Shown here in pieces: positions 4,445-47,254 of a stretch of 52,802 nt of DNA (positions are counted from its first letter, which is position 1; every line of letters begins with the position of its first letter). This DNA is from Candidatus Omnitrophota bacterium (GTDB taxonomy: Bacteria; Omnitrophota; Gorgyraeia; Gygaellales; Profunditerraquicolaceae): the NCBI GenBank assembly GCA_028715415.1, contig JAQURX010000004.1, positions 84,933 to 137,734 on the forward strand, written 5' to 3'. The position numbers and the translations under genes were made by a program. Under the pieces are notes generated by a model. The model was given only the letters and a program-made list of their open reading frames with translations, ran no database searches and was not told the DNA's origin.

Positions 4445-5601
4445 TTTTTCCCCTTAGATATTTTAAGCTGTAAATCCAATATTAAAGCATGCCTTTTTTC
4501 TTTTTCTTCTTTAGGCACATCATCAGGCATACTTGCGGCAGCTGTGTGCGGACGCGGCGAATATTTAAAAATAAAAGCCGCATTAAATTTAACTTCTTTT
4601 ACCAAATCAAAAGTATCCTGAATATCTTTTTCGGTTTCAGAAGGGAAACCCACAATGATATCAGAAGTTAACTCTCCACCCTTAACAATTCTACGGTAAT
4701 TCTTTACTAATTCCAAGTAATATTCTTTTGTATATCCGCGGTTCATTAATTTTAAAACCCTATCCGAGCCTGATTGAATCGGTAAGTGTAAATATTTTCT
4801 TAACTTCTCAAGCTCTGCCATCGCCTTAAATAATTCTACCGAAGCATCCTTGGGATGCGATGTCACAAAACTAAATTGTTTAAGCCCGTCTATATCGTTG
4901 ACTTTTCTTAAGAGCTCCGTAAATCGAGGATAGCTGTTCACATTCTGCCCTAAGAGCGTGATTTTAGTTATCCCGGCAGCAATATCTTCTTTGATTTCTT
5001 TTAAAATGTCTTCACTTGGCCGATGCCTTAAAGCGCCCCGGACAAACGGCACAACGCAATATGAACAATAATTCTCGCATCCTTCAGAAATAACTACAAA
5101 CGCATGTTCTTTATCTAAATGAAAGCCGGTGTGATAAATTTCATTTTCTCTGAAATCCGCATCAGTTTCATAGATTTTCTTTTCGTAGGGGCTATTCTTA
5201 TGCTTCTCAATTTCTTTTAAGATTTTTGGAATCTTTGCGATGTCGCGCGTGCCAACTACAAAATCAACTTCCGGAGCCCGCTCAAAAATTGATTCACGAT
5301 AATTCTGAGCCATGCATCCTACAATCCCAATAACAGGAATTGTATTTATTTTTCGAGAACTACCTTTAAGCTGTTTAGACCTAGTTTTTGCTATCTTTCC
5401 TATCCCACTCCACACTTTTTCTTCCGCCAACTGCCGCACAGAACAAGTATTAAAAATAACAATATCTGCCTCATCAGGCTCGTCAATAATCTTATAGCCT
5501 TCTTTCTCAAGAAGCCCAGCAATTACCTCCGAATCCCGCACGTTCATTTGGCAGCCGAAAGTACGTATATACACTCGCTTATTTCCAGTCATTTTCCGCA
5601 T
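4441..5601 (-). CDS. miaB: tRNA methylthiotransferase MiaB, lacking a TRAM domain (386 aa)
   Basis: MiaB is a radical-SAM enzyme that converts i6A37 to ms2i6A37 in tRNA. The N-terminal [4Fe-4S] cluster cysteines are C17 (FGCQMN), C53 (NTCSVR) and C96 (VGCMAQ). The radical-SAM cluster CxxxCxxC is C175-C179-C182 (GCENYCSYC). The protein stops right after LILDLQLKISKGKK, where family members continue with a TRAM RNA-binding domain of about 60 residues, so it is short at the C-terminus. The next gene overlaps it by 4 bases, so no TRAM coding follows. The start could be the ATG at 5601 or an ATG three codons later; neither has a strong ribosome site. Confidence 0.9.
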   Translation of the reverse strand: MRKMTGNKRVYIRTFGCQMNVRDSEVIAGLLEKEGYKIIDEPDEADIVIFNTCSVRQLAEEKVWSGIGKIAKTRSKQLKGSSRKINTIPVIGIVGCMAQNYRESIFERAPEVDFVVGTRDIAKIPKILKEIEKHKNSPYEKKIYETDADFRENEIYHTGFHLDKEHAFVVISEGCENYCSYCVVPFVRGALRHRPSEDILKEIKEDIAAGITKITLLGQNVNSYPRFTELLRKVNDIDGLKQFSFVTSHPKDASVELFKAMAELEKLRKYLHLPIQSGSDRVLKLMNRGYTKEYYLELVKNYRRIVKGGELTSDIIVGFPSETEKDIQDTFDLVKEVKFNAAFIFKYSPRPHTAAASMPDDVPKEEKEKRHALILDLQLKISKGKK

Positions 5602-5737
5602 AAAAATTAGAATTACTCTCTAAAAAGCGCTACTAACGTACGGTTACCGAACATTTCTACAATTCTAACTTATTTTTTTATATTAAAATTACGCTATGTG
5701 TTCTCAAAATTTTCACAAACATGTATCAAAAAATAAA

Positions 5738-7237
5738 TTACTTAACAGAACTACCTTGTTTAATATTAAATCCTTTTCGCCAAATCAGGGGAATTCTATA
5801 TACAGCACTTTTAGGTATATATTTAAGGAATCCAATAGATCTCAACTCTTCAATCCTTTTTGCACAATCTTGACCTAAAATTCTTTCTAAGGAAGCGTTG
5901 TCGTGTTCGACTCGACTATTTTCAAATTTCAAGAAGCATTCTTTCAAATGATTAAATTCTGCAAACAAAAAGTTATTTTTCTTATTGATCGATAATATTC
6001 CCAATGCCTTTTTAAAAGAATCTTCTTCAATTAAATATTCTTGGGCTTCCGGTTGGGATCGAAAATTCTTCAGTTGAACTGATTTTGCAAACTTAAAAAA
6101 GTCAATAATATCCCTGGGTGTCACAATATCATTACCATCCGAACAGCAACTATATAACCAATCAAATGTTTTACTTTTTCCAATCTTAGGGGGAAAAAGT
6201 CTATAAAATATTTCTTCACGATAAGACTTATCTCGATCGATTCTTTCTGAATTAAAGCCAAAGAAATTTCTAACATGCTCAATTGATGACAAACGCTTAG
6301 TAATTAAAAAAAGTATGTCATCTTTAGACCAAGACATCGCTGATGAACATCTATCTGCTATATGTGTCATTGCAGCAAACCCATCCGAGGCCAAGTAATC
6401 GAGAATATCCTCCCGAAGAAATATCTTAACTCTAAGGAATGGGTCTGAAAAGTTATAAGCGGCTCTCAACAAACCGCGTAACCCATATTTTTCCGTGACG
6501 CTTCTATGCAAGAAAATTTCGTCTAATCTATCAAGCATAATCCAAATTCTAATATTATTCTTTTTAAGAATTTCTACAATTAAATCCTTGAACTCGGTAA
6601 GATATAGTGGCCTTTTAGATATTTCTTCCCTTGCAAGCGGTTCTATTTCTAGGATAGGCTTAAAAGACTCTGGCAATGAAGTAATAGGATTTATTTTGGT
6701 TTCAACCCCAACTTTCTTTTTTGCGTTTCTAAATAGATCAATGAGCGACATGGGTGCTTCTTTGAAATCGAATCCTGACTTTACAATTTTTAAACCCATG
6801 TTCGATAAAAGTCCATCTATTCTTTTAATATCATCGTCCAGTAGTTGTCTTCTCAATTGCTCAGCATTAAAAATAAGCTTATATACTAAAACAATAAAAT
6901 AGAGACTCCAAAAATTGATAAATTCTATTTCAGAATAATCTTCGAACTCTTTTTGGTATAATTTGAAGATAGGATCTCCTGTGGCCTCTACACCAAAAAT
7001 AGGGTAAAGGTTCTGCTTCTGTATCATCATATCTCTTATGAAAAATAACAATCTATATAATGCAGTCTTCCCAGACCCTTTCATCCCCTTAACAATATCT
7101 ATCCGATCATAATAATATAAATCACTAAATTCTTGAGTTTCAATTCTAGCGATTTCCAAAAGCGCATCTTTCTCAGCAGTAGAAGCCCCTAAATCAAAGG
7201 AGTTCAAGAGACTATCGACATCATTGGGTTTAAACAT
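5738..7237 (-). CDS. P-loop ATPase resembling the Sll1717 family (499 aa)
   Basis: A large ATPase has Walker A GMKGSGKT at residues 51-58 and a Walker B-like strand IWIMLDRLDE at 231-240. The LDRLDE pattern is typical of STAND/KAP-like NTPases and of the Sll1717 group. The C-terminal half is helical with no recognised effector domain. I start at the ATG at 7237, which has AAAGGAG eight bases upstream; an upstream in-frame start would overlap the neighbour and add an unlikely leader. It sits 31 bases after the helical partner gene, and the two form an isolated pair with non-coding DNA on both sides. Such pairs are common in defence or accessory islands, but function here is not established. 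Confidence 0.6.
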   Translation of the reverse strand: MFKPNDVDSLLNSFDLGASTAEKDALLEIARIETQEFSDLYYYDRIDIVKGMKGSGKTALYRLLFFIRDMMIQKQNLYPIFGVEATGDPIFKLYQKEFEDYSEIEFINFWSLYFIVLVYKLIFNAEQLRRQLLDDDIKRIDGLLSNMGLKIVKSGFDFKEAPMSLIDLFRNAKKKVGVETKINPITSLPESFKPILEIEPLAREEISKRPLYLTEFKDLIVEILKKNNIRIWIMLDRLDEIFLHRSVTEKYGLRGLLRAAYNFSDPFLRVKIFLREDILDYLASDGFAAMTHIADRCSSAMSWSKDDILFLITKRLSSIEHVRNFFGFNSERIDRDKSYREEIFYRLFPPKIGKSKTFDWLYSCCSDGNDIVTPRDIIDFFKFAKSVQLKNFRSQPEAQEYLIEEDSFKKALGILSINKKNNFLFAEFNHLKECFLKFENSRVEHDNASLERILGQDCAKRIEELRSIGFLKYIPKSAVYRIPLIWRKGFNIKQGSSVK

Positions 7238-8914: not shown

Positions 8915-9085
8915 TCACGCAGTACTTGCACCAACCGCCAAACTTTTTTCCGTTGGCATTAAATCACAGAAATAATAACGGTTATCTCTCAAAACAACCT
9001 CACCCTTTTCGCATTGTATTTGCCTTGAGAATATTGGACCATCATACACAAATGAATGGAATTCCCCATTTTCACCGCAAGGATC
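8915..9085 (-). pseudogene. 3' fragment of a second Dph6-like gene copy
   Basis: These 171 bp align without gaps to 12378-12548, the last 56 codons plus stop of the intact Dph6-like gene, with 9 mismatches. Of these, 7 are synonymous, one swaps the stop (TAA to TGA) and one changes Ile to Thr. Homology starts exactly at the stop codon and ends at a GATC, where unrelated sequence with an immediate in-frame stop begins. The fragment has no start and cannot encode the ATP-binding domain. Confidence 0.93.
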
Positions 9086-12377: not shown

Positions 12378-13082
12378 TTACGCAATACTTGCACCAACTG
12401 CCAAACTTTTTTCGGTTGGCATCAAATCACAAAAATAATAACGGTTATCTCTCAAAACAACTTCACCCTTTTCGCATTGTATTTGCCTTGAGAATATCGG
12501 CCCATCATACACAAATGAATGGAATTCCCCATTTTCACCGCAAGGATCTACATTAGCAGGAAGCTCGGATAAAAATTGCTTATCAAAATCCCTACCGGCA
12601 AAAGATTTATCAAGAATCTTTGAATCAATGCAAGTGATAACCGCCTTAAAACCTAAATCGATAAACGTATTAGCGAGCTCAAGAGAATTTCTTTTCCAGA
12701 TGGGGAAAATGCCTTTCATACCTAACTTTGACAGATTGCCTTCGCGGTATTTCTTTAAATCTTCAAGGAAAATATCTCCGAAAGCTACAGAAGAAACGCC
12801 CATGCCCTGATAGCGCATCAACGCATCCTTCATCTTGGCTTCATATTCTTCATTTGATGATTTCTTTGTGATATAGATTTTCTCCAAAGGCAATCCCAAG
12901 AATTCCGCCTGCTGTTCAAGAAGAATTTTCCGCACACCATGCATACTTATCCTCTCGTAATCTTCTGTAACAGTGGTAAGAAGTGCAACTATTTCATAAT
13001 CGCGGCTCTTTTTTAATTCATAAAGAGCCATAGCGCTGTCTTTTCCTCCGCTCCATGCAAAAAGAATTTTTTCCATAATCAT
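12378..13082 (-). CDS. Dph6-like adenine nucleotide alpha hydrolase / ATP pyrophosphatase (234 aa)
   Basis: PP-loop ATP pyrophosphatase: FAWSGGKDS at residues 8-16 binds ATP, and the Dph6 hallmark CGENGEFHSFVYDGP lies near the C-terminus. Archaeal and eukaryotic relatives amidate diphthine on EF-2. Bacteria lack diphthamide, so the bacterial reaction is unknown, with an amide-forming or nucleotide-activating step most likely. The start is the ATG at 13082 with AAAAGGGG upstream. The last 171 bp have a diverged duplicate at 8915-9085. Confidence 0.85.
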   Translation of the reverse strand: MIMEKILFAWSGGKDSAMALYELKKSRDYEIVALLTTVTEDYERISMHGVRKILLEQQAEFLGLPLEKIYITKKSSNEEYEAKMKDALMRYQGMGVSSVAFGDIFLEDLKKYREGNLSKLGMKGIFPIWKRNSLELANTFIDLGFKAVITCIDSKILDKSFAGRDFDKQFLSELPANVDPCGENGEFHSFVYDGPIFSRQIQCEKGEVVLRDNRYYFCDLMPTEKSLAVGASIA

Positions 13083-40884: not shown

Positions 40885-42453
40885 TTAGGACTTATCTTTA
40901 AGGCAAGCTGAAAAATATCCTCCAGTAAGGCCATCAAGCGTTGCGGTCAATTCTCTGATTTTTACTTCTTTTTCAAAAAGCTTTCCGCTATCTTCTATCT
41001 TTAGATTATCCAATTCAGCTTTTAAACGCAATCGTTCAAAATAAGTTTTATTAACCTCATCTAAAATGTCATTCCTTAGCTGGACGCTGAGGCGAGAACG
41101 GGTATCAATAGAAGTTTGTGCTTCACTCCAGATAATTTCGCTTAAATCCCAAGATAACGCCACATCCCAGCCTATAGTTGTTTTTCCGCGCATCAAAACA
41201 TCATCACAAACTTTAGTACTTGACCCCGTTTCCCAATGCCAAAGGTCAGAAGTATCATTATTTACCCCTGCGCTAACTTTAGGCAAAAAAGCTTTCTTAG
41301 CTGCCAACCTTCTCCACTCTTTAATCTTTTCAGGATTCACTTCTGCATACTTTACTGCAGCTTGCTGGACATCGGAGACCTTCGGCTCATCCTGGATGTA
41401 TGTCGCAAGCCTAGAATTGATAACTTCTTGTTTGGCAAAAGTTGCTGTGTAAATTTTAAAAACTCCGTTATTTCCCCCTATATATAAATTTTTTAACTTA
41501 TCAAAAGCAAGGCACCTAACATCGTTTACTTCGTAGCATACCGATAATTCCCACCAACGGTTATCTTTATACAAGAAAACTCCGGATTTAGTTGCTGCAC
41601 ATAAACCCAAATCCTGAAGAAATATCGTATTCCTGACATTTTTATCAAGTAACCCATACTCACTCAATGCATCCCAAGTATCTCCCGAATCAATGCTCCG
41701 GTAAACTCCTTTCTTACAACTAAAATAAATTTCATTACCATTGCCAGGATTAATGCTTAAACTTTCAAATTGAGACGATTGCTCCCGCGCCTCATCTTCA
41801 CTTTCTATTTCGTTAATAGAGCTACCCTCATTTTCACTATCGGATAAAACGCTACAATCAAAGATCTTTTCCCACAAATTTTTAGCTTTAGACAACCGGA
41901 ATAACCCTTCAGTGCTACTTACATAAACATACTGTTTATTATCGCTGGAGATATTTAATATTCTGCTATCCCCCAAAATACCCGGTTGTTTAAACCAACT
42001 CCTGCCTTTGTCGTTACTGGAAAATAATCCGCCATTAGTCCCTAAATAAATTGCTTCAGGCAAGATTAATACAACGTTACAACGGCTTTCTAAAAAACTT
42101 TTCCCACGGAACAACCTCCGCCATCTTAACCCGGAATTAGAACTAAAATATAAACCATTATCGCTTGCTGCATAGATACAATTCGCGTCATCCGGATTGT
42201 TTACTAAATAATTCACTGTATAATTTTCGCTGATTGAATATACCCTTCTCCAGCTAAACCCGGAATCTTCACTTGATATAATAGAATTCTTTGAGCCTGC
42301 AAAGATTACTTTTCCATCCCCAGAGTTGATTAGAATTGATCTTACATTGCGGTATTCCCTGCTGATATTCTCCCAGTCTGAGCCATTTGCCGTTACCCTG
42401 AAAACCCACAGTTGCAAAAAGAACAAACTAAACATCAAAACTACTTTCTTCAT
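40885..42453 (-). CDS. Secreted beta-propeller (BNR/Ycf48-like) protein with TolC-like C-terminal part (522 aa)
   Basis: A signal peptide (about 1-23) leads into repeated propeller blades (about 25-330), with motifs such as GDGKVIFAGSKNSIISSEDSGFSWRR (Asp-box style), AASDNGLYFSSNSGLRW, and LGTNGGLFSSNDKGRSW. From about residue 340 it changes: LPKVSAGVNN, GWDVALSWDLSEIIWS, a long helix DTRSRLSVQLRNDILDEVN, and a last ELTATLDGLTGG. That tail resembles the ends of TolC-like outer membrane proteins and may attach the propeller to the outer membrane or an envelope complex. A GGGGGGA ribosome site precedes the ATG. A two-block ECF-type promoter motif lies 42-72 bases upstream of it. Confidence 0.72.
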   Translation of the reverse strand: MKKVVLMFSLFFLQLWVFRVTANGSDWENISREYRNVRSILINSGDGKVIFAGSKNSIISSEDSGFSWRRVYSISENYTVNYLVNNPDDANCIYAASDNGLYFSSNSGLRWRRLFRGKSFLESRCNVVLILPEAIYLGTNGGLFSSNDKGRSWFKQPGILGDSRILNISSDNKQYVYVSSTEGLFRLSKAKNLWEKIFDCSVLSDSENEGSSINEIESEDEAREQSSQFESLSINPGNGNEIYFSCKKGVYRSIDSGDTWDALSEYGLLDKNVRNTIFLQDLGLCAATKSGVFLYKDNRWWELSVCYEVNDVRCLAFDKLKNLYIGGNNGVFKIYTATFAKQEVINSRLATYIQDEPKVSDVQQAAVKYAEVNPEKIKEWRRLAAKKAFLPKVSAGVNNDTSDLWHWETGSSTKVCDDVLMRGKTTIGWDVALSWDLSEIIWSEAQTSIDTRSRLSVQLRNDILDEVNKTYFERLRLKAELDNLKIEDSGKLFEKEVKIRELTATLDGLTGGYFSACLKDKS

Positions 42454-42602: not shown

Positions 42603-43013
42603 TTACCAGAGATATTCTCTCATTTTATCATCAGCATTCTTTAATGAATATTCCGGCTTCATTATCGGTTTATCATATGGAGGCGCTACAAAAGTTACTG
42701 CATCATACAAACCAGTAACCCCTCTAACCAAACCATTGAATATTCCGACAGCCAAACCCAAGGTACAACCGACCACCGGATCTTTTTCCTTTGACATCTT
42801 CATTACTTCAGCTGGAACTTCAGCCCAACAGGTAGCAGTATTAATAACACCCCTGCCTAGTTTATTTGCTGGTGTCTTATCAAAGTTAACTTCATCAGTA
42901 TTATACACATATTGTTGATTATCCGTTCCAGATTCTGTTTCTTCCGCCGAGCATATAGATGTGAAAGTAAATATAAGTATTAATCCGGCAAATACACAAA
43001 AAATCTTTTTCAT
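42603..43013 (-). CDS. Exosortase-system-associated protein, TIGR04073 type (136 aa)
   Basis: Signal peptide about 1-20 (ending ICSAEE), then TPANKLGRGVINTATCWAEVP, CTLGLAVGIFNGLVRGVTGLYDAVTF and PIMKPEYSL, the pattern of TIGR04073. That family occurs in genomes carrying exosortase/PEP-CTERM sorting systems. It is presumed to be exported; its role is unknown. The start is the ATG at 43013, one base after the stop of the ribbon-helix-helix-like gene and using AAGGAGGGG as ribosome site. A longer frame starts inside that gene and is rejected. It is the last gene of the riboswitch-controlled unit. Confidence 0.83.
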   Translation of the reverse strand: MKKIFCVFAGLILIFTFTSICSAEETESGTDNQQYVYNTDEVNFDKTPANKLGRGVINTATCWAEVPAEVMKMSKEKDPVVGCTLGLAVGIFNGLVRGVTGLYDAVTFVAPPYDKPIMKPEYSLKNADDKMREYLW

Positions 43014-43014
43014 T

Positions 43015-43260
43015 TTACCCCTCCTTGTGCAATTCATGAAGCAACTTATCTTTCAAAGCCCCAGCTGAATCAATCTTATCCCCTGAAATACCCAGGCTCA
43101 TTGCAAAATCAATCAATCCGCGGAGTATTTCAGTATAAGAAAGTTTGTGGCCGGTAGAGAACATAGCGTCCTTGCCTAATTTGTCAAGAAAATCAATTTC
43201 TTGCCGGCCCAGCATCGTAATTACTCTATGCATCATTATCTCTTTAATCGCTTTGTCCAT
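43015..43260 (-). CDS. Small ribbon-helix-helix-like protein (81 aa)
   Basis: The segment RVITMLGRQEIDFLDKLGKDAM could be the strand and first helix of an RHH fold, with TEILRGLIDFAMSLG the second helix. The match is by pattern only. GAGGTGG precedes the ATG. It lies one base from the TIGR04073 gene and 24 bases after the 34-residue ORF, downstream of the c-di-GMP riboswitch. A transcription regulator is a reasonable guess, but a structural role cannot be excluded. Confidence 0.5.
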   Translation of the reverse strand: MDKAIKEIMMHRVITMLGRQEIDFLDKLGKDAMFSTGHKLSYTEILRGLIDFAMSLGISGDKIDSAGALKDKLLHELHKEG

Positions 43261-43519: not shown

Positions 43520-43606
43520 TCTTTGGTAACGCAGCCTCCCGAAATTTGACGGGACTGTCGCTTTGCGTCCTAAGGTTACCCTTAGTTTGCCTTTGTCAGT
43601 AGGTTA
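43520..43606 (-). promoter_or_regulatory. GEMM-I riboswitch aptamer (cyclic di-GMP type)
   Basis: Minus-strand order: GGCAAAC (43591-43585), P2 stem CTAAGG/CCTTAG closed by a GUAA tetraloop, the hallmark GGACGCAAAGC (43570-43560), P3 stem with CCCG/CGGG arms (about 43555-43535), then GUUACC (43530-43525). The base equivalent to position 20 of the Vibrio Vc2 aptamer appears to be G, which favours c-di-GMP over cGAMP. A near-consensus promoter lies upstream, with T1 and T2 downstream. It regulates the 34-aa ORF, the RHH-like and the TIGR04073 gene. Confidence 0.88.
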
Positions 43607-43697: not shown

Positions 43698-45896
43698 CTA
43701 ATTGGCATTTAAGCTAACCAATTCTTTCTTCATCTCCTGATAATCAATATTACTGATAGTAATGAAGATTTCCTGGGCTTGACGGAAATACTCCTTTGCC
43801 TTGTTCTTCTTTCCAGTTTTCTTAAATAAGAATCCTAAGTTTCGTAAACCAGAGGCGAGCTCCGGAAGAACCTTTATCTGGCGAGATACAGAAACAGAGC
43901 GATTAAATGATTCCTGGGCCTCAGAAAACTTATCCATATCAAAATACAACTCCCCAATCATATTATAATCAGAAGCTAAATTCATTTTATTGCCTTGCAA
44001 TTCATCAATTTTAAACCCCTTGGCATAACAATCAAGCGCCTTCTGATATTGTTTCTCAAATAGATAAATCTCCCCAATATTAAAATAATAATCGCTCAAT
44101 TCATTCTTTAATTTCATTTTTTTAAACATACCGAGGCTTTTGGAATAAAATTCTTTGGCAGTTGCATAATCATTCTTATCAGAAAAAACTAAGCCAAGAT
44201 CAAAATAATCGCAAGCTAAATTATACCTATGCTCAAAATTACGGCTTTTAGAACGGTCAATTTCAGAACACTTAATAAGCAGCTCCAGCGCTTTATCGTA
44301 TTCTTCAATATCCATATTCCACACTGCAAGCTTCCTCATCGCCACAGACTCGCTATAAGAATCTTTTTCCTGCCTGGCTTTAATAAGCGCTTGATTGTAG
44401 AATTCTAAGGCCTTTTGAGGCTGCCCGGAAAGATAGTATGTCCAGCCAATCCCAATATAAGCCTGAATCAAATCTTTGCTTTGGCCTTTCTTCTCACTAT
44501 ATAAAGCGTAATCAAAATAATACTTTAGAGCCTGCTCAATTTCACCCAACCTGAAATATGAATCAGCCAGTAATGGATACGCCTTCAAGAATAAGCTATT
44601 CTTCTCAATTATTCTTTTACAATTCCGGATTACTTCCTGGTTTCTACCGCTTAGATAAGATTTCTTTGACTTGGAGAACAAATACAAAGTGCTTGGATTT
44701 GCCTCCGGAAGGAATAAAAACATAAAAATGCAAATTACCGCTGCAACCAAACCTAATGATATCTTCAAAAGATTTTTTCTTAAGAAAATAAAACTTTTTT
44801 CCTGCTTTATCCCGTTATTTGCTTTATCCCTAAACAAGACAAAGTTTGGGTCACCATAAAGAAGGTAATTCGTCCAGTGCATCTTCCCAATGCCATAATC
44901 ACGTACTAGTTTTAACCTCCCTAAACGGACACATTCTCCGATGGAAACACCCGAAAGAAGCTGTGTATAGAACTCTTTAGCAAAAGTAAAACTTACCTTA
45001 TCCTCAATCTTCCTTATTGAACCGATATAATGGCGGACGCCTGAAAACAAAAAAGCCGCAGCAAGATTATAATTATTTTCCTGATAATCATTACCACAAG
45101 GCAATTGGTTTCCCGAAGCTGAATAGCAAGCATTAGAAAACACAAGCGAAGGCATAGAAACAAATGAAGCCATAGACTCAATATCCTGCGAAGTAAGCAA
45201 GCCATCTGCAAGTATCCAACCCGTATTTTGCGGATTAGATAAGTCGTGTTCGCAGTGGCCTGCAAAATGGACTATATCATAGTCACAAATATTTTTCTTA
45301 GTATATATCTTATCTATATAGGTAGATTTAAAATCTATATGGACGCTGTTTCGTTTACGGTCAAATTGATTTCTAATGCTTAAGCCTTCTTCATAAGCGC
45401 CCTTTAAATCATTTGTTGGGTTAGCCAATATCAACATCTTTAAAATACTAGAAAAACTTCGATACTGGACGGCAATTGATTCTCTTTTTGTCCTCACCAG
45501 CCTGCCAAGGCTAAAGTTAAGGCATAAAAAATTATCCCCGTCATATAAGATTTCCCACGGGACATCAATCAATTCCTCATCAATTGAAAGGACTAAACCT
45601 GAACCTTGCTCAAGCCTCAATTTATCCCTTACCTGTTTTGTTAAAAGCTGATTCCAGAGAAGTTGCCCTGCCTTTACTAGCGATCTTTCTAATTCCGGCT
45701 GCTCTATAAGGCTTTTAGAAGCTTTATTCAACAAAAAGAAAACTTCTTTGCACAAGCTTCGTATTTCTTCAAAAGAAACATTACACTGACTATAATGTCG
45801 CAGCGTTGAAGCAATTTCAGCTTCCTTAAACAGGCTCATCTTTAATGACTGCGCCTGTTTGAATATTTCCAGGACTAATTTATTCTGATTTTGCAT
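43698..45896 (-). CDS. Membrane CHAT-domain protease with C-terminal TPR repeats (732 aa)
   Basis: After an N-terminal helical part (1-95), a caspase-like CHAT domain runs from about 97 to 355. His214 in VHFAGHCEHD and Cys257 in FSNACYSA form the expected catalytic dyad. One transmembrane helix (376-396) follows, then at least seven TPR units (about 405-725; AYIGIGWTYYLSGQPQKALE and similar). Positive charges before the helix suggest CHAT in the cytoplasm and TPRs outside. It lies 7 bases after the anti-sigma-like gene and belongs to the sigma cassette. Cleavage of the anti-sigma is a plausible role, not shown. Confidence 0.87.
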   Translation of the reverse strand: MQNQNKLVLEIFKQAQSLKMSLFKEAEIASTLRHYSQCNVSFEEIRSLCKEVFFLLNKASKSLIEQPELERSLVKAGQLLWNQLLTKQVRDKLRLEQGSGLVLSIDEELIDVPWEILYDGDNFLCLNFSLGRLVRTKRESIAVQYRSFSSILKMLILANPTNDLKGAYEEGLSIRNQFDRKRNSVHIDFKSTYIDKIYTKKNICDYDIVHFAGHCEHDLSNPQNTGWILADGLLTSQDIESMASFVSMPSLVFSNACYSASGNQLPCGNDYQENNYNLAAAFLFSGVRHYIGSIRKIEDKVSFTFAKEFYTQLLSGVSIGECVRLGRLKLVRDYGIGKMHWTNYLLYGDPNFVLFRDKANNGIKQEKSFIFLRKNLLKISLGLVAAVICIFMFLFLPEANPSTLYLFSKSKKSYLSGRNQEVIRNCKRIIEKNSLFLKAYPLLADSYFRLGEIEQALKYYFDYALYSEKKGQSKDLIQAYIGIGWTYYLSGQPQKALEFYNQALIKARQEKDSYSESVAMRKLAVWNMDIEEYDKALELLIKCSEIDRSKSRNFEHRYNLACDYFDLGLVFSDKNDYATAKEFYSKSLGMFKKMKLKNELSDYYFNIGEIYLFEKQYQKALDCYAKGFKIDELQGNKMNLASDYNMIGELYFDMDKFSEAQESFNRSVSVSRQIKVLPELASGLRNLGFLFKKTGKKNKAKEYFRQAQEIFITISNIDYQEMKKELVSLNAN

Positions 45897-45903
45897 AAAA
45901 GAA

Positions 45904-46608
45904 TTAAATTTTTACATCCAAATGAATTGACACAAGCTTATCTTCAGACGAACAAATCTCGATTACATATTTACCCAAAAGAACATGGTCAAAAATAACC
46001 TTCCCTGAATCGGACAAATACGACTCCAGCTCAAGATTGTCCCTTATAAGAGTAATCCGCAAATCCTTTATTAACTCCTGAGTATCTTTATTTTTAGCTG
46101 TAATTAACAAATTAAAATACTTAGAATCTTTATTTTCAATCTTCACCTCAACTCTAAAATTATCAAAATCCTTTAAAATTACCACCTCATCTTTAAAATC
46201 CTTGATATTACGGCTGCGCAATAACGGCGAAGGCATTAGCTCCTGGCCGACAAGTATGTCCCCAGAAGTATTAATTAGTTCCAAGAAATTCTCTTTTAAT
46301 TTCAGGAATATTTCCAAAACAGCTTTCGCTGTCCCAGTTCCACTGGCTAAATCCTTAACCTTAAGCAATAATTCCTCTGGGATTTGTAAATCTTCCGGAT
46401 TTACCAATTTTGCCTGCAGTAAAACCTTATTTGCACAATCATCACAGCCAATTATGTGCATTTTTAAACTCTCCAGCTCTTCGTTGCTAAGTTTGCCCTC
46501 TATAAAACAAGCCATGAGCATTTCATCCAAATGATTAGAATCACAAGCTGCTTCATTTTTCTTCCATTTTTGGAAAGCTTTTTTTATGAATTCTATGTTT
46601 TCTTCCAT
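45904..46608 (-). CDS. Zinc-finger anti-sigma-like protein (234 aa)
   Basis: The N-terminal part has H51-x3-C55-x2-C58 (KMHIIGCDDCANKV), the ZAS-type zinc-binding signature. An amphipathic linker (about 75-110) and a C-terminal all-beta domain (about 135-234; DFDNFRVEVKIENKD, KVIFDHVLLGKYVIEI) follow. No membrane helix is visible, so it is probably soluble, unlike most ECF anti-sigmas. It stands between the ECF sigma gene and the CHAT gene, and carries an ECF-type promoter motif (copy B) just upstream. AAAGG precedes the ATG. Confidence 0.78.
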   Translation of the reverse strand: MEENIEFIKKAFQKWKKNEAACDSNHLDEMLMACFIEGKLSNEELESLKMHIIGCDDCANKVLLQAKLVNPEDLQIPEELLLKVKDLASGTGTAKAVLEIFLKLKENFLELINTSGDILVGQELMPSPLLRSRNIKDFKDEVVILKDFDNFRVEVKIENKDSKYFNLLITAKNKDTQELIKDLRITLIRDNLELESYLSDSGKVIFDHVLLGKYVIEICSSEDKLVSIHLDVKI

Positions 46609-46625
46609 TTTTTGCCTTTCATATA

Positions 46626-46655
46626 CAATAGACGATAAAATCTCATAAATCTAAC
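46626..46655 (-). promoter_or_regulatory. Two-block ECF-type promoter motif, copy B (upstream of anti-sigma/CHAT)
   Basis: GTTAGATTT (46655-46647), 11 bases, then TCGTCTATTG (46635-46626), identical to copy A at 42495-42524 in both blocks and spacing. The upstream block overlaps the last codons and stop of the sigma gene. The downstream block lies about 17 bases before the anti-sigma start codon. Confidence 0.72.
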
Positions 46656-47254
46656 TCAAATCCTTTCAATTTAAAACAATCCCTTAATCTATCAATAATC
46701 CGCGATTTGCGCATATCAATTGTCCCTCTTGAAACGCCGAATAGGGTTTTCAATTCATCAAGCTTTAACCCGCGGTCAATAAACAAAGATAGAAAATATT
46801 TATCATCAATGCCCAGTTTTCCGATACAATCAGTTAAAGCATCAAGCTTTTCATCAGCCATAACAGTAAGGCTTACCGTTGTTTTTGTATCTGCTATCGT
46901 TTCCATTAAGCTTGGGCAATCATCATATTCTTCATCCAATGAAGAAGCTTGAGGAGTAAGGCTGCGAAGGCAATCAATCGTATGATTAATCACTACCTGT
47001 CTTAACCAACTCGCGAGAGTGCAGTTATTTTTTGCGGAGAATGATTTAAATTTAGAGAAATTATCTTTGCTCAGAAGGACGAAGATATCCTGGAAAATAT
47101 CTTCTACTTGATCGTGGTTACTTAAGTTTGCTCCATTAGATTTAAGTATACTATATATGTAGCGGTAGATTAAATTTGAATATTTGTCTACAAATTCATT
47201 CCATGCTTCTTTCTCACCCTTAACACATCTTGAGACAAATTCAAGATCAGTCAT
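46643..47254 (-). CDS. ECF-type RNA polymerase sigma factor (203 aa)
   Basis: Sigma-2 region (about 10-90) includes DQVEDIFQDIFVLLSK and TLASWLRQVVINHTID. The sigma-4 region (about 140-197) contains LKLDELKTLFGVSRGTIDMRKSRI, the -35 binding helix-turn-helix. A linker of about 45 residues (LTPQASSLDEEYDDCPSLME) separates them. No sigma-3 or sigma-1.1 is present, as in ECF factors. No clear ribosome site precedes the ATG at 47254. It leads the sigma, anti-sigma, CHAT cassette. Confidence 0.92.
   Translation of the reverse strand: MTDLEFVSRCVKGEKEAWNEFVDKYSNLIYRYIYSILKSNGANLSNHDQVEDIFQDIFVLLSKDNFSKFKSFSAKNNCTLASWLRQVVINHTIDCLRSLTPQASSLDEEYDDCPSLMETIADTKTTVSLTVMADEKLDALTDCIGKLGIDDKYFLSLFIDRGLKLDELKTLFGVSRGTIDMRKSRIIDRLRDCFKLKGFELDL

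Follow-up and report, generated by a model that had tools for sequence, protein, structure and literature searches.

A conserved non-CRISPR operon of an ECF sigma factor, a soluble zinc-finger anti-sigma factor and a membrane-anchored CHAT protease in Omnitrophota, with a candidate arginine cut site

What does a CHAT protease do beside an extracytoplasmic function (ECF) sigma factor and its putative inhibitor in a genome in which no RAMP-family Cas protein is found? The question is raised by a three-gene cassette in a 52,802-nt stretch of DNA (the window) from Candidatus Omnitrophota bacterium (contig JAQURX010000004.1). An earlier note on this DNA had described adjacent genes for an ECF sigma factor, a zinc-binding anti-sigma (ZAS) protein and a CHAT-TPR protein, and had proposed that the protease frees the sigma factor by cleaving the anti-sigma factor. 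Domain scores and coordinates bear out the gene assignment. The wider interpretation held for the catalytic dyad, the gene linkage and the membrane topology, but not for the linker as the cleavage site or for the TPR part as a universal component. The genes are as follows.

46643..47254, minus strand: ECF-type sigma factor of 203 aa with regions 2 and 4 (TIGR02937, structure-profile matches)
45904..46608, minus strand: soluble ZAS anti-sigma factor of 234 aa (zf-HC2, zinc ligands, AlphaFold2 model, no transmembrane helix)
43698..45896, minus strand: protein of 732 aa with a CHAT domain, a transmembrane helix and TPRs (Pfam CHAT and TPR, AlphaFold2, Foldseek)

They form one minus-strand operon, transcribed in the order sigma, anti-sigma and CHAT, with intergenic gaps of 34 nt between the first two genes and 7 nt between the last two. 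The CHAT gene is single-copy in the source genome, which is 97% complete.

The association of the three genes is not peculiar to the window. Of the 58 contigs of the genome collection that extend at least 1.8 kb upstream of the CHAT gene, 57 carry sigma, anti-sigma and CHAT in the operon order and on a single strand. A search of 98 related genomes returned matches to the CHAT-TPR protein in 82, to the anti-sigma factor in 61 and to the sigma factor in 80, where the weak matches to the first are TPR-only proteins and those to the last are other ECF sigma factors; high-scoring matches to all three sit on shared contigs with the order kept. Seven distant Omnitrophota loci (L171–L177), from other families and one other class, likewise have a full-length anti-sigma gene between the sigma and CHAT genes, so the linkage, on which the proposal had been staked, held. 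The flanks are also stable in many genomes: 21 loci are preceded by an hppA-like gene, and beta-propeller, thioredoxin and pta/ack-like genes lie downstream (hppA-like, thioredoxin and pta/ack-like being our own reading of the sequences). Near-universal linkage and stable flanks are what a vertically inherited core locus would show.

The protease domain opens the third protein of the operon.

44823..45896, minus strand: CHAT protease domain, codons 1–358, with H214, C257 and the candidate S1 aspartate D299 (conservation)

Pfam places CHAT at residues 74–348 with a score of 106 bits (cut-off 24), and the domain carries the His-Cys dyad of a CHAT peptidase. H214 and C257 had been named as this dyad from the single sequence, and both positions are right: among relatives covering the site, each is conserved in 90 of 90, with none lacking the pair, and proteolytic activity is predicted. 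D299 (89/89) and W114 and E115 (88/88 each) are just as strictly kept, and P113 is invariant or nearly so. The AlphaFold2 model of the whole protein has a mean pLDDT (predicted local distance difference test) of 88, and Foldseek matches it to the Csx29/TPR-CHAT structures 7y8t, 8eex and 8d9f. A profile of the full CHAT-TPR protein retrieved mostly unrelated TPR proteins from the PDB, and a CHAT-only profile was used instead.

Separase binds the P1 arginine by a salt bridge to an aspartate found 41 residues beyond its catalytic cysteine (human C2029 and D2070; D2151 in C. thermophilum) (PMC10317155, PMC9729208). D299 sits 42 residues past C257. In the profile alignment, the SAVED-CHAT protein 8tl0 keeps the same Asp (EVYDSAS), whereas Csx29 has no acid at this position (KVRSNKT). 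The CHAT domain of one relative gave further matches, to gingipain (C25) and, at a weak level, to separase (C50), both of which are Arg-P1 families (PMC4357240). Because D299 is placed like the separase S1 aspartate, and because of the C25 and C50 matches, arginine would be expected at P1, and the cut is predicted to be directed to an Arg in the beta-domain of the anti-sigma factor. Two CHAT proteins depart from the usual length: that of L078 (genome G066) has 1251 aa, owing to an additional region and a much larger number of TPRs, and that of L076 (G071) has 802 aa, its CHAT domain carrying an insertion built of SLDSARDK repeats.

In the AlphaFold2 model of the anti-sigma factor (mean pLDDT 88), ZAS helices (2–68) are followed by a low-confidence linker (~69–95) and a beta-sandwich (96–233). 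Two stretches stand out by conservation.

46432..46533, minus strand: zinc-binding HX24HX3CX2C stretch, codons 26–59 (ligand conservation)
46210..46251, minus strand: conserved beta-domain loop, codons 120–133 (VGQELMPSPLLRSR), with R131 as the proposed P1 residue (conservation, AlphaFold2)

The zf-HC2 score of the whole protein is 21.1 against a Pfam cut-off of 22.2, and 24.0, above the cut-off, in the genome-level scan. The zinc ligands are strongly kept among relatives, with H26 in 74 of 81 (Cys in 6 others), H51 in 80/81, and C55 and C58 each in 81/82. An HX24-25HX3CX2C motif in a helical N-terminal domain identifies the protein as a ZAS anti-sigma factor, predicted to bind and inhibit the sigma factor of its operon, and its profile weakly matches the DdvA and RsiW anti-sigma factors. 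As the earlier note had claimed, the ZAS protein lacks a membrane helix: no clear transmembrane segment was found in the window protein or its family members.

A ZAS protein might be expected to sense the cytoplasm. Soluble ZAS anti-sigma factors usually work by redox-driven conformational change (PMC8999054), and a weak RsrA match was seen; the zinc finger could then sense redox or metals in the manner of RsrA, with the CHAT-TPR protein degrading the anti-sigma factor or resetting the switch. We regard this as improbable, since the inhibitor-like proteins of L177, L079 and Leptospira lack the zinc ligands yet retain the beta-domain and the CHAT partner, and the ligand spacing fits a plain structural zinc equally well.

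The beta-domain has no confident structural match in the PDB and only weak CarboxypepD_reg/EMC7/SpaA-like matches. Its most striking stretch, and that of the whole anti-sigma factor, is GQExxPAPVLRSR (121–133). Within it R131, in the loop between the predicted strands 123–126 and 141–147, is identical in 84 of 84 relatives, and in 96 of 96 once the distant families and Leptospira are added, while its neighbours vary; it is kept even in the three proteins without zinc ligands mentioned above. The R131 motif was not found in other proteins of the source genome. The linker was set aside as the cut site, its residues 69–95 being weakly conserved; the range of about 75–135 that had been put forward as a linker mixes this low-confidence segment with folded beta-domain. 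Judged by conservation, the R131 loop is the better candidate for the cleavage site, and we propose it tentatively, below even odds.

The remainder of the third protein suggests where a signal could enter.

44706..44762, minus strand: single transmembrane helix, codons 379–397 (hydrophobic segment, charge bias; AlphaFold2 helix 368–395)
43698..44696, minus strand: TPR array, codons 401–732, predicted to lie outside the cytoplasm (Pfam TPR, AlphaFold2, charge bias)

The helix is the only hydrophobic segment of the protein. Pfam finds TPRs at 401–731 (TPR_12, 114.6 bits), and the AlphaFold2 helices over the same residues mostly exceed a pLDDT of 90. By the positive-inside rule, the 15 residues on the CHAT side are more net positive than those on the other side in all 47 relatives in which a transmembrane segment is clear, with a mean difference of about +4, while the helix sequence itself is not conserved. 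Within the main family, this bias gives good support to the orientation first suggested from the charges of the window protein, with CHAT inside and the TPRs outside. The topology is less clear in some distant members, and L077 and L178 have a weak transmembrane segment or none. As a transmembrane TPR sensor, the layout applies to the main family and is not universal: a locus from another Omnitrophota class (L171) has CHAT with a C-terminal transmembrane segment and no TPR, and the Leptospira protein consists of CHAT only.

The sigma factor, the conserved first gene of the operon, scores 70 bits against the cut-off of 42.9 of the NCBIfam ECF superfamily model TIGR02937. It has regions 2 and 4 only, as do ECF (group 4) sigma factors, and its profile matches the structures of SigW, SigK and RpoE. 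The window protein falls below both Pfam region cut-offs; Sigma70_r2 was found in 35 of 35 family members. Against the type III-E CASP sigma model NF041236 it reaches 28.7 bits, where the threshold is 100. Three of its cysteines, C10, C143 and C193, are nearly invariant in the family (70/78, 76/78 and 75/78).

An ECF-type autoregulatory promoter was not found upstream of the sigma gene; a housekeeping-like -10 element was found instead. Of 46 relatives, 31 have a TATAAT-like element about 6–10 nt ahead of the sigma start codon, where 5 would be expected; the window itself lacks it. In most relatives (L033–L090) an extended -10 element (TGnTATAAT), likewise absent in the window, ends about 6–10 nt before the ATG. 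Its closeness to the ATG suggests leaderless transcripts. With such a promoter at the sigma start, synthesis of the complex may be constitutive and its control post-translational.

We lean, if cautiously, towards the view that CHAT controls the sigma factor through cutting the anti-sigma factor. At rest, the N-terminal ZAS domain of the soluble anti-sigma factor would keep the sigma factor bound, while the beta-domain of the anti-sigma factor would offer the conserved loop to CHAT, which faces the cytoplasm as part of the membrane-anchored protein. Engagement of the TPR array on the far side of the membrane would activate CHAT, which would cut the anti-sigma factor after an arginine, most likely R131. 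The sigma-bound fragment would then be removed or loosened, leaving the sigma factor to guide RNA polymerase to the genes that it controls. Release may depend on a further protease, for instance ClpXP; such a requirement has been proposed for CalpT and considered for Csx30. The reading makes a narrow prediction: a single peptide bond would be cut, that after R131, with C257 as the nucleophile and D299 as the residue that sets specificity.

Several observations weigh against this scheme. The release that should follow the cut is its weakest step, since the ZAS domain would stay whole after cleavage at R131. R131 is also not alone in its conservation: R184, F206 and Y214 show no variation either (96/96), S196 hardly any (95/96), and R131 could be structural. 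F206 and Y214 look like ordinary fold-core residues, whereas R184 and S196 might make up a patch for docking. With these residues fixed or nearly fixed as well, R131 is plausible as the cut site but not proven. Protease sites are usually flexible, and AlphaFold2 gives the R131 loop fairly high confidence, with a short helix at 127–132. The promoter seems to lack the autoregulation common at ECF loci. Finally, the one contig that breaks the linkage, from genome G028 (L036/L099), has intact anti-sigma and CHAT genes and no recognizable sigma gene upstream; the sigma gene has been lost or replaced.

The near-invariance of R131, R184, S196 and Y214, as in a docking surface, the ordered loop and the ZAS domain left whole would each suit a different arrangement, in which the beta-domain docks on CHAT, and CHAT tethers it to the membrane or acts on it allosterically. 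The ZAS domain would then let go of the sigma factor in response to a conformational change passed on by the TPRs, and proteolysis would be kept for other substrates or for self-processing. A pure tether would not need catalysis, yet the full catalytic set of H214, C257 and D299 is invariant, and we consider this arrangement unlikely, though deserving of more weight than redox sensing by the zinc finger.

Control by proteolytic cutting has close parallels in CRISPR biology. Csx29 cuts Csx30, an inhibitor of a sigma factor, between residues 427 and 429, and cleavage lifts the inhibition; the N-terminal part of Csx30 binds the sigma factor and its C-terminal part carries the cut loop (PMC10028731). 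Like the type III-E Craspase/CASP system (Csx29-Csx30-CASP-sigma), the Omnitrophota cassette encodes a CHAT protease, a putative sigma inhibitor and an ECF sigma factor together, but Cas7-11 (gRAMP) is missing from the genome and a CRISPR-type array from the window. Csx29 is soluble, with N-terminal TPRs followed by a C-terminal CHAT domain, whereas the Omnitrophota protein runs from CHAT through a transmembrane helix to the TPRs, and the inhibitor, unlike Csx30, is a ZAS domain joined to a beta-domain. SAVED-CHAT is another known CHAT system (PMC11229360). No SAVED match was obtained in a Pfam scan of the Omnitrophota cassette. In the type III-B system of Haliangium, SAVED-CHAT (PCaspase) reportedly acts as a CHAT-type protease upstream of an inhibitor-sigma pair, and is said to be soluble, CRISPR-linked and driven by cA3 through its SAVED domain in a two-step cascade.

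The best studied CHAT-sigma systems being CRISPR-associated, the cassette could be an anti-phage or abortive device in which an intracellular invader signal triggers CHAT, as in type III-E or SAVED-CHAT. We think this very improbable. A CRISPR link was looked for and dropped: the genome encodes no RAMP-family Cas protein and the window holds no CRISPR-type array, which agrees with the earlier statement that no CRISPR system is present. No phage copies of the anti-sigma factor were found, and PADLOC gave nothing beyond matches in the TPR region. One copy per genome, near-universal presence in the family and an often stable chromosomal site form the pattern of a core gene rather than of mobile defence.

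Other sigma systems share parts of the design. In Myxococcus xanthus DdvS-DdvA (PDB 8RLZ, 8ROT, 8RW5), a ZAS anti-sigma factor is likewise physically linked to CHAT and has an ECF sigma factor as its partner, but DdvA is a single 991-aa ZAS-CHAT protein, whereas in the Omnitrophota loci read the two are separate genes, CHAT is membrane-anchored and the anti-sigma factor has a beta-domain. What inactivates DdvA was still unknown in 2015 (PMC4374960). ECF54 sigma factors have CHAT, subtilase and carboxypeptidase genes in conserved context, and proteolytic control was proposed for them, but they are said to lack an anti-sigma factor (PMC8999054); every complete Omnitrophota locus, in contrast, has a ZAS or beta-domain protein. 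The proposed path from an outside signal through anti-sigma proteolysis to sigma release resembles RseA-DegS-RseP and RsiW with the membrane part reversed: RseA and RsiW span the membrane, whereas here the protease spans it and the anti-sigma factor is soluble. A non-CRISPR operon of an ECF sigma factor, a ZAS anti-sigma factor and a CHAT protease was not described in the literature searched, which is weak evidence as most subscription papers lay outside the search. With Csx29/Csx30, SAVED-CHAT, DdvA and the ECF54 neighbours as known relatives, what is new is a vertically inherited, non-CRISPR, membrane-anchored CHAT-sigma variant, together with the beta-domain of its anti-sigma factor and the invariant loop arginine of that domain.

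A counterpart of the cassette occurs beyond the Omnitrophota. In Leptospira interrogans (NZ_CP092665.1), a sigma gene, a gene for a 242-aa protein and one for a 403-aa CHAT protein keep the cassette order. The CHAT protein matches at 9e-62 and has neither a transmembrane segment nor TPRs, and region 2 of the sigma factor matches at 96% probability. The 242-aa protein matches the beta-domain profile with an E-value of 4e-8 for this one sequence; hhalign gives 7.5e-4 at a probability of only 25%. It is a putative inhibitor of the adjoining sigma factor. The L. interrogans record L182, labelled as a plasmid, carries dnaE and thiD, and its intact CHAT ORF (4806–6017) is missing from the PLSDB gene table.

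Because L171 has no TPRs and Leptospira has neither TPRs nor a transmembrane segment, the shared core appears to be sigma factor, beta-domain protein and CHAT, with the transmembrane-TPR part added. It is possible, if short of probable, that this is a general non-CRISPR form of sigma control, present in Omnitrophota and in one spirochaete or more. A caspase-like, Arg-specific CHAT protease would recognize a dedicated beta-domain of the anti-sigma factor, the Omnitrophota protease, joined by its membrane helix to outside TPRs, would itself be a transmembrane receptor, and the CRISPR versions would have been recruited from an older housekeeping module. If true, a caspase/separase-like protease would act as a transmembrane receptor governing transcription outside CRISPR, which would offer a mechanism for the CHAT genes found beside ECF sigma factors and hint at the origin of the CRISPR-linked CHAT-sigma systems.

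Downstream of the cassette, two further features of the window were annotated.

40885..42453, minus strand: beta-propeller protein (BNR/Sortilin-like) with a hydrophobic N-terminus (Pfam Sortilin-Vps10, 38.9 against 33)
43521..43600, minus strand: c-di-GMP-I-GGC riboswitch, closely following the CHAT gene (62.3 bits)

A beta-propeller gene follows the cassette in 33 of the 50 related loci with room for it. The protein has a conserved C-terminal part that by eye resembles TolC-type helices, and one might speculate that it is the outside partner of the TPRs or a target of the sigma factor. The riboswitch lies upstream of two small genes (43015–43260 and 42603–43037), and among 11 loci scanned the same riboswitch occurs downstream of CHAT in L048 and L036. 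Elsewhere in the window, a 169-nt direct repeat is present in two copies, at 8917–9085 and 12380–12548, which are 95% identical.

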